From NCBI RefSeq assembly GCF_037935975.1, contig NZ_CP149817.1, positions 4,774,001 through 4,838,000 on the forward strand: a stretch of DNA of 64,000 nt, given 5' to 3'. Each line of letters opens with the position of its first letter. The stretch's first letter is position 1. The stretch comes from Teredinibacter turnerae (lineage in GTDB: Bacteria; Pseudomonadota; Gammaproteobacteria; Pseudomonadales; Cellvibrionaceae). The position numbers and the translations under genes were made by a program. The notes beneath the pieces are model-generated. The model saw only the letters and a program-made list of their open reading frames with translations. It was not told the origin of the DNA and did no database searches. Below are positions 26,552 through 29,233 of the stretch, piece after piece.

Positions 26552-29233
26552 CTAGTCCCATAAACGATTTAGCATGCTCCACTTGCCCTCTTCGAACCCG
26601 GTCCAGGTACCCCAGCCAGAGGTATTGCTGATGGGATCGTACGCGTGAGAATAGAGTCCGCCAGTATCACCAGATTCCGGGTTGATAGACCAGTAGCAGG
26701 CTTCGATGTTTTTCTCGTCCATATAGTCCACAAACGCGTTCTGCCACTGCTCATCCACATTCGTAGTGATATGGCTCCAGCGGTTGATATCGCGCTCACT
26801 CGAACCTTGCGGCCAGCCGTAGTGACCACCGAACTCGCCCACCACAATGGCATACCCCATGTCACGCAGATAGCCGAAGTGCTCTTCCCAGCCGGGACGT
26901 AGAATGTCGGGGTTGATGACGATGTTACAGTCATTATCACCCGCTTCGTCCCCTTCAAGCCCCTCACATGCTGGCTGCGCTGGGTCCATAAACATACGCT
27001 GTACGAACACGGAAGGACCGTAAGTGTGCGGCGAGAAGACCAGACGCGATTGAGGTACATTGGGTAAATCCGACCCCGCTTCGTAGAGGTTCTCACCCCA
27101 GTTCGGGTTGGAGAACTCATCACCGTGTGGCACTTCTACGTTGTCGTCGGGGGTGCCGTCCTGATTGTTAGCAGAAGCGGAAATGCCCTGTGCAAATATC
27201 AACAAGTCGGAATTGACCGAGTTGATTGCGGCATAGGCGTCCTCAATGTGCGTTTTCCAATCGGACCAGGTGTAATCCCAGGGTTCGTTAAAAATATCGA
27301 TCCCGATAATGTTATCGACACCCAATTGGTCGGCAAGTCCCGCTAGCTCACGCAGATCGTCCAACCATGCTGCCTTGTCGTAAGCCTGGATATTTTGCAC
27401 TGTGCCGGGGTTACCGCTTGCAGAGCACGACCAGTCTTCCCGCGGGAAGTCGTACAAGTCCCGATCCGCATCCGCGTAGGGCGGGCGAGCATCAAAACGG
27501 CCAGCACGCCATCCGACATAATTGGAGCAGGAATGGATATCCAGCATCACTTCAAGGCCATGCTGATCAGCCAACACAATAAAATCCTCCATCGCCTGAC
27601 GCGCATTGGTCTGCCGCAGGGGCTCGTAGTTCTTTAAGTAGGGCGCACGGCCCTGGGCGTTATTCGGATCGAGTGTTTGCGGCACGATGGGGAAACGGAT
27701 CACATTGATCCCGCGTGCGGTAATTTCATCCATGGTCTGCTCGATGGTGCGCGAGTGTTCATTGGCCCAGAATACGTTACCGATGTACAACTCCATTGGT
27801 GCTCCACTGGGGTTGTCCGGGTCATCCGAGGGTTCGTGACGGCCTTCCAGACCGAACCAGGAGCCACAATGCATCGGGAAGATCTGTCCGTTTTTAGTGA
27901 TATTACCGCTCGCGTCAACGCGGAAGGTGCCACCGCCGGAAGAGGTACTGGTGCTGCTCGAGCTGCTGGAAGACGATGACGTGGTGCCACTCGACGAACT
28001 CGAACTGCTCGATGAGGAGCTGCTGCTGGACGACGAGGTGCTGGTACCACAACTGTTCACCACCCCTCCGGAACCACCGTTCTGACTTTGACAGGTTTGG
28101 CGACCGATACAGTTCTGGTTATTTTCCCATCCCCAGCCGCTAGTGTTCTGACACAGGGGGTACATGCCCTGCCCATACCAGTCACACATTTCTTGACAAC
28201 CCCCACTGCTGGAGCTGCTTGAACTACTGCTGGAGGAGTTGGAACTGCTCGATGCCGAGGTGGAAGAGGAGCTAGATGAACTCGTTGTTGAACTGGTGCT
28301 ACCGCCCCCGCTACAGGAACCGAGACTGGTCCAGGAAGCATCGCTGCCAGGCGTGGAGTTGGTGTACCAGTTCGCGCGGTACAAATTGTTTTGATAAACC
28401 ATCTGGTCACCGGCATTGGCGTGATTGTATGCGCCGCCAGACCAGTCGCGCGCGGTCCAGTTGGGGTACACATTCACTCCGGCACAATTACCGGTACCAC
28501 TGCCGGAAGAACTGCTGGAAGAGCTGGAGCTGGTACTTGAGCTGGAACTGGATGTGCTCGAGGTCGTGCTGCTACCGCCGCCTTCGCTCACGGTGATATT
28601 GGATTGGCCACTGCTCTGGTAACCCTCGGTCGCCATAATCTGATAATCATGGCTACCCAGGTTCAAGCCCACAGCAGCCCAGGCATCGAAATGCGCTCCG
28701 ACATTTATCGTTCCGCTGGTGCGCTTGTTTTGCCGCACACTCCAGTATTGGTAGAACGTGGCCGTGCCTTCAATAGAGGGCTGGTTAACCCGTTGGCTGC
28801 GGCCCAGCTGGTAGGTACTGCCATCAATATTGACACTACCGTAATTCGTGGCCCCGGACGCAGGATTGTAATTAACCCAGTTTTCGACAATGTAATATTC
28901 GATCAGCGGGTTGCGAGTCCAGCCGTATAGTGCGAGGTAGCTGGTCCCACTCGCGCTATAACTGCCCGAATAGGTTACTGTGCGCCGGGTACCCGGCATC
29001 CAACCTTTACCACCAACCCAGTTGTTGGTGCTGCTGTTCCAGGATGAGGAATAGTTTCCACCAGCACCGAGTGTCATGGTGGCGTTACCAGAATCTTTCC
29101 AGAACGAATAGTAGTAACCATTCTGGGTTCCGGTGGCATTTGAGCTAAGCGTTTGCGCATGAGCGATGGGCACAGCCGCAACCGCAAGTGCTGCGGCAGC
29201 AATCGCACGCCTGTGCGTTTTCAACAATTTCAT
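26552..29233 (-). CDS. Multimodular xylanase/cellulase: GH11-CBM5-CBM10-GH5
   Basis: 893-residue secreted enzyme. Signal peptide 1-26 (AHA-QT). GH11 endo-beta-1,4-xylanase domain about 28-217 with nucleophile E112 ([12 protein letters not shown]) and acid/base E203 (ATEGYQSSG). Poly-Ser linkers separate it from CBM5 (about 248-307), CBM10 (about 345-396; six Cys) and a GH5 endoglucanase-type domain (about 437-893) with acid/base E650 (IFNEPWDY) and nucleophile E800 (VGEFGGH). Both active sites look intact, so one polypeptide should cut xylan and beta-1,4-glucan. CBM5-CBM10-GH5 is shared with the upstream neighbour. AGGAGA lies before the ATG at 29233; the longer upstream frame lacks a signal sequence. 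Confidence 0.96.

Follow-up and report, generated by a model that had tools for sequence, protein, structure and literature searches.

The window, i.e. the whole stretch of 64,000 nucleotides of DNA analyzed here, belongs to a host genome consisting of one contig (5.35 Mb) and carries on its minus strand a gene in which a GH11 and a GH5 module are joined in one frame. This gene, hereafter the fusion, runs without interruption from an ATG at 29233 to a stop codon at 26552. The list of open reading frames offers a longer alternative with a GTG start at 29380; the ATG is preferred since an AGGAG resembling a Shine-Dalgarno sequence lies directly upstream of it and a signal peptide follows. The features of the locus are:

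26552..29233, minus strand: fusion gene, 893 aa, GH11-CBM5-CBM10-GH5, putative bifunctional xylanase/glucanase
29156..29233, minus strand: signal peptide, aa 1-26 (...AVPIAHA, cut before Q), by sequence inspection
28583..29155, minus strand: GH11 xylanase module, aa 27-217 (Pfam, structure alignment)
28900..28898, minus strand: GH11 nucleophile E112
28627..28625, minus strand: GH11 acid/base E203
28487..28582, minus strand: poly-Ser linker 1, aa 218-249
28313..28492, minus strand: CBM5 (CBM_5_12_2), aa 248-307 (Pfam)
28199..28312, minus strand: poly-Ser linker 2, aa 308-345
28049..28198, minus strand: CBM10, aa 346-395 (Pfam)
27926..28048, minus strand: poly-Ser linker 3, aa 396-436
26555..27925, minus strand: GH5 glucanase module (GH5_1-like), aa 437-893 (Pfam, structure alignment)
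27286..27284, minus strand: GH5 acid/base E650
26836..26834, minus strand: GH5 nucleophile E800
26501..26526, minus strand: intrinsic-terminator-like hairpin directly 3' of the fusion (consensus scan)
29782..29815, minus strand: terminator-like hairpin between neighbor and fusion, 14-bp stem and T run (consensus scan)
29837..31924, minus strand: neighboring paralogue upstream of the fusion, 695 aa, CBM5-CBM10-GH5

Gene structure, orthologues and selection

Each of the four Pfam matches of the fusion exceeds its curated cut-off: GH11 (PF00457; aa 38-214, E 5.6e-77, family positions 2-178 of 178, score 258 against a cut-off of 27 bits), CBM_5_12_2 (aa 248-307, E 9.4e-36, 122 bits against 27), CBM_10 (aa 349-376, E 3.1e-5, 24.8 bits against 23), and Cellulase/GH5 (PF00150; aa 475-853, E 6e-40). 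An NCBIfam search assigned no family to either the fusion or its neighbor. The first-pass annotation had read the gene as one intact bifunctional polypeptide with three poly-Ser linkers between four modules; as far as a sequence can tell, this is borne out by the single 893-aa frame, by the catalytic residues present in both enzyme modules, and by the three linkers mapped above. The intact frame together with a 98%-identical orthologue excludes that the similarity is fortuitous, that a sequencing frameshift is involved, or that two adjoining genes were taken for one. The likewise noted resemblance to the neighboring gene is confirmed, the GH5 parts being paralogous: the two proteins are 83% identical over fusion residues 249-893, and the DNA is 74.7% identical over 2003 nt. 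Neighbor and fusion are probably separate transcription units, since a strong hairpin lies between them and another follows the fusion; the consensus scan yielded no more terminators in total than shuffled sequences did, and position and strand of the hairpin after the fusion fit.

Three further elements of the window were recorded. A secreted-looking, methyltransferase-like protein of 257 aa without Pfam match is encoded at 32863-33636 (plus strand), and its gene is conserved beside the cellulase locus in two other genomes (G006 and G004, see below). A small frame at 25386-25680 (plus strand), whose sequence begins MPVIAVWKCDRDG, presumably resembles the DNA-damage protein YebG. A 6S RNA (RF00013, 95.8 bits) is located at 55362-55541 (plus strand).

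Genome G006 of the same genus harbors the full-length orthologue (98% identical, 894 aa versus 893 aa) between the same flanking genes. The adjoining gene there encodes a 699-aa CBM5-CBM10-GH5 protein; TERTU_0427 of T. turnerae T7901 has the same length and modules (PMC2699552). Between the fusion and its G006 orthologue, dN/dS amounts to 0.021 for GH11, 0.023 for CBM5, 0.012 for CBM10, and 0.012 for GH5. Since these values are low while synonymous sites have diverged considerably (dS of about 0.32 in the enzyme modules), the GH11 and GH5 modules are both under strong purifying selection.

A genome search for the same domain order, which the first-pass annotation had suggested, thus finds it in G006, and the order is already in the literature: E7_MBN_00820 of strain E7MBN is described as a 97-kDa "glucanase/endoxylanase, GH11 + CBM5 + CBM10 + GH5", is classed as classically secreted, was found by mass spectrometry among the proteins secreted on sucrose and on cellulose, and adjoins E7_MBN_00821 (CBM5+CBM10+GH5) (PMC12055684). 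Its homologue TERTU_0428 was reported from membrane vesicles in a vesicle proteome (PMC12055684), and seven multicatalytic enzymes as well as long poly-Ser linkers had been reported earlier for T7901 (PMC2699552). The fusion is real, intact, and ordinary for the genus, its four-module architecture having been published in T. turnerae. Very probably, the fusion and the secreted multicatalytic TERTU_0428 are orthologues, the host being closely related to T7901, and the fusion has the two-enzyme, cellulose-anchored action proposed below. Taken by itself, the enzyme offers little that is new, since architecture and secretion are already published.

Predicted enzyme activities and proposed mode of action

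The presence of both catalytic Glu pairs, claimed at first pass, is upheld by alignment to solved structures. Among solved xylanases, the GH11 module matches 2vuj strongly (E 1.4e-80), and E112 (in PLIEYYIVE) and E203 (in ATEGYQSSG) align with the same motifs of this structure. In the GH5 module, E650 (in NEP) and E800 (in GEFGG) align with the NEP and GEFGG motifs of 4tuf, the latter site also with those of 2zum and 3vvg; this pair is invariant across 15 aligned GH5 modules (alignment positions E211 and E361). The GH5 module is more distant from solved structures than the GH11 module, and an AlphaFold2 model of it built from four sequences (mean pLDDT 48) is unusable for the fold. Whether the single sequence or a 15-member profile serves as query, its strong PDB matches are all endoglucanase-type cellulases, i.e. 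EGPh (2zum/3vvg), XccEG (4tuf, the major endoglucanase of Xanthomonas), E1 (1ece), and CelE2. The structure 2ZUN, of the same protein as the EGPh matches, is the representative of subfamily GH5_1, most characterized members of which are endo-beta-1,4-glucanases (PMC3526467). The GH5_1 likeness of the fusion is a partial sequence similarity, judged from these PDB matches rather than from a CAZy subfamily profile.

These matches bear on the annotation of the neighbor's orthologues in T7901 and E7MBN, TERTU_0427 and E7_MBN_00821, as cellodextrinases. If this published label were correct and applied to the fusion as well, its GH5 module would be a cellodextrinase and not an endoglucanase, which is quite unlikely. 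The label itself looks doubtful because the closest solved structures are GH5_1 endoglucanases and the cellodextrinase subfamily GH5_52 is described as intracellular (PMC3526467), whereas the fusion has a signal peptide, cellulose-binding modules, and GH5_1-like PDB matches; an endoglucanase is the more likely identity of this GH5 type. Among the papers found in a literature search, none records an activity or assay for the fusion, its orthologue, or the neighbor.

According to the proposed mode of action, the signal peptide would direct the protein to Sec export, followed by crossing of the outer membrane or transport on vesicles. The central CBM5 and CBM10 would keep it bound to cellulose; GH11 at the N-terminus would cut xylan and GH5 at the C-terminus beta-1,4-glucan, each enzyme by a double-displacement (retaining) mechanism with two Glu residues. 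Both activities are predictions from the modules present, and cooperation of the two enzymes within one molecule is plausible: flexible poly-Ser linkers may let them act next to each other on xylan-coated cellulose, with the protein free or on vesicles, in the host gut or on wood. The first-pass annotation had placed this joint cutting of xylan and cellulose on wood or algal cell wall. Secretion of the orthologues in T. turnerae (PMC12055684) fits wood; the algal wall is unsupported as a target. The host group is a symbiont of wood-boring molluscs. A xylanase and a cellulase on one cellulose-bound chain would be a plausible way of co-localization without a cellulosome for shipworm symbionts, which secrete few enzymes.

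Cleavage of the fusion at its linkers is possible, because unusual processing at serine-rich sequences occurred in related enzymes with serine linkers from "Pseudomonas fluorescens subsp. cellulosa", as indicated by the title of ref. 37 in PMC2699552. It is nevertheless improbable that such cleavage, before or after secretion, leaves a separate xylanase and cellulase to do the work: the fused frame has been maintained by selection in three species, in one of them in three genes, and E7_MBN_00820 was identified as one protein, although shotgun proteomics is blind to cleavage. A full-length poly-Ser-linked GH5-GH6 relative could not be produced (PMC10071621).

Origin of the fusion and exchange of modules

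Within the genus, this locus, recognized by its flanking genes, and a fusion in it are found only in the host genome (G000), G006, and G004. In G004 it forms a tandem array of four GH5 genes (L064, i.e. G004:C2:481000-500000, positions 3423-16424), of which one encodes CBM10-CBM5-GH5 and three bear GH11 heads; two of these fusions contain CBM5-CBM5, and the third has an extended middle part. Genes 1 and 2, one of them unfused and the other fused, are 100% identical over their final 1500 nt, up to the stop codon, and thereby clearly show a recent duplication or conversion. The array offers natural variants (CBM5-CBM5, longer middle) for linker and CBM effects. In one of its fusions (L064:9436-12900, 1154 aa), CBM5 and GH5 are separated by a stretch of about 390 aa without Pfam assignment, which resembles a further pair of small carbohydrate-binding-like modules set between poly-Ser linkers.

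The first-pass annotation had derived the gene from a copy of its neighbor to which a GH11 domain was added N-terminally. For a single event of this kind, with nothing further, speak the CBM5-CBM10-GH5 order common to both genes, the synteny of the locus in the three genomes, and the GH5 tree, in which the two modules group together (88/84, not starred) as the closest pair among the paralogues of the host genome, apart from the G004 copies. This history is, however, too simple and partly refuted. At the DNA level, the GH5 module is no more similar to that of the neighbor (78%) than to the G004 copies (77-80%), and the CBM5 is 92% identical to those of two cellulases of the same genome, CelAB and a GH6 enzyme, and 80% to that of the neighbor, a comparison that covers only 60 residues and is suggestive, not proof. 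In the GH11 tree, the fusion is placed together with a G004 gene of the type GH11-CBM5-CE4-CBM10 (L080; 86/92), and the GH11 of one G004 fusion is sister to a GH11-CE15 gene (L081; 100/92). Forcing the five fused heads (G000, G006, and three of G004) into one clade is rejected (p-AU 2e-5); the first tree contained long branches (L083, L091/L092, and L080 with 405 aa), and rebuilding it without these left the result unchanged (p-AU 3e-5). A clade of the G000 and G006 heads with the first two of G004 is not rejected (p-AU 0.06). Moreover, the BLAST match of the fusion to the G004 CE4 gene runs through both GH11 and CBM5. Since the closest GH11-CBM5 stretch sits in this gene, the CBM5 may have arrived together with the GH11. 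A single event without later changes is unlikely, and modules have evidently been exchanged repeatedly.

Two histories accommodate this exchange. Either one ancestral fusion arose at the locus before G000/G006 and G004 split, and gene conversion and module exchange then scrambled the trees, or two or three fusions occurred independently at this locus within the genus, each with its own GH11 donor. The restriction of locus and fusion to three genomes of the genus, the identical ends of the fused/unfused pair in G004, and the 70-72% DNA identity of the fused heads from signal peptide through CBM5 argue for the former. The grouping of heads with different unfused genes (the CE4 and CE15 genes) speaks against it and would also be explained by separate fusions, to which the GH11 tree and AU tests, an independent case outside the genus, and the variety of partners (PL1, GH5, GH26, CBM2, CBM5) joined to the same GH5 clade point; at a single syntenic locus, however, separate fusions require a larger number of events than conversion. 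We lean toward one ancestral fusion scrambled by conversion and regard two or three separate fusions as somewhat unlikely.

The case outside the genus emerged from 144 genomes of the host's family, among which this GH5 type is fused to GH11 in G000, G006, G004, and G033; the check used large frames with GH5 matches, which fusions with a poorly matching GH5 would escape. G033, of another genus, encodes a GH11-CBM2-CBM10-GH5 protein of 992 aa (L118, 4273-7251, minus strand), whose GH11 and GH5 fall into other clades than those of the host and whose linkers contain Ala, Pro, and Arg. By these criteria the same two families of enzymes were joined here in a separate event, and a single origin of all GH11-GH5 fusions is rejected for G033, where GH11, GH5, CBM, and linkers differ in lineage or type. 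Repeated independent joining of the same two families would suggest selection for their pairing on wood. Elsewhere, the GH5 type, which a reduced order-level search found nearly confined to the host's family, is preceded by CBM2, CBM2-CBM10, PL1-CBM5-CBM5, another GH5, or GH26. Further multicatalytic proteins built on it are encoded at L071:3906-7070, L070:8013-11900, L119:2337-6101, and L120:4104-7529 (PL1-CBM5-CBM5-GH5, GH5-CBM5-GH5, GH26-...-GH5, and GH5-GH5). The host genome also contains three consecutive GH11 genes at G000:C1:3498405-3504550 (L074), two of which were scanned (GH11-CBM60 and GH11-CBM60-CE4-CBM10).

Duplication, recombination, and gene conversion, probably by way of linkers and CBMs, would thus have equipped one GH5 type repeatedly with varying N-terminal modules; the recombination route of the fusion itself is our inference. 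A broader proposal, tentative and with slightly less than an even chance of being right, is that the locus serves as a workshop for multicatalytic enzymes, in which new N-terminal enzymes (PL1, GH5, GH26, and, in at least two independent events, GH11) are placed repeatedly before the GH5_1-like type by recombination at poly-Ser DNA and CBM5/CBM10, with conversion ongoing in tandem arrays.

Comparison with known systems

TERTU_0428 of T7901 and E7_MBN_00820 of E7MBN share the four modules, their order, and the neighboring gene with the fusion (PMC12055684), and the G006 orthologue, one residue longer, differs by point differences only. TERTU_0427 and E7_MBN_00821 represent the paralogue type without GH11 and are orthologous to the neighbor in the window. 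Like the fusion, CelAB of T. turnerae (TERTU_2895, GH5-CBM5-CBM10-GH6; L078 in the host genome, with the 92%-identical CBM5) is multicatalytic, with poly-Ser linkers and a central CBM5-CBM10 pair, but its N-terminal GH5 is of another lineage and its C-terminal enzyme is a GH6, both targeting cellulose. The GH11-CE4 and GH11-CE15 xylanase/esterases (TERTU_1678, 1680, and 3447 type), also present in the host genome, resemble the fusion in their GH11 head, CBM5 or CBM10, and poly-Ser linkers; instead of a glucanase, they carry a xylan or glucuronoyl esterase as their second activity. Outside this group, XynD of Ruminococcus flavefaciens possesses a GH16 glucanase. As cited in PMC2721979, XynD combines, like the fusion, a xylanase and a beta-glucanase (beta-1,3-1,4-glucanase) in one chain, but this glucanase is not a GH5 and the protein bears a dockerin. 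TwCel5-6 of Teredinibacter waterburyi (PMC10071621) is likewise a bicatalytic, poly-Ser-linked cellulase of a shipworm symbiont, and its GH5 is a proven endoglucanase; in contrast to the fusion, this GH5 belongs to subfamily 2 and the second enzyme is a GH6.
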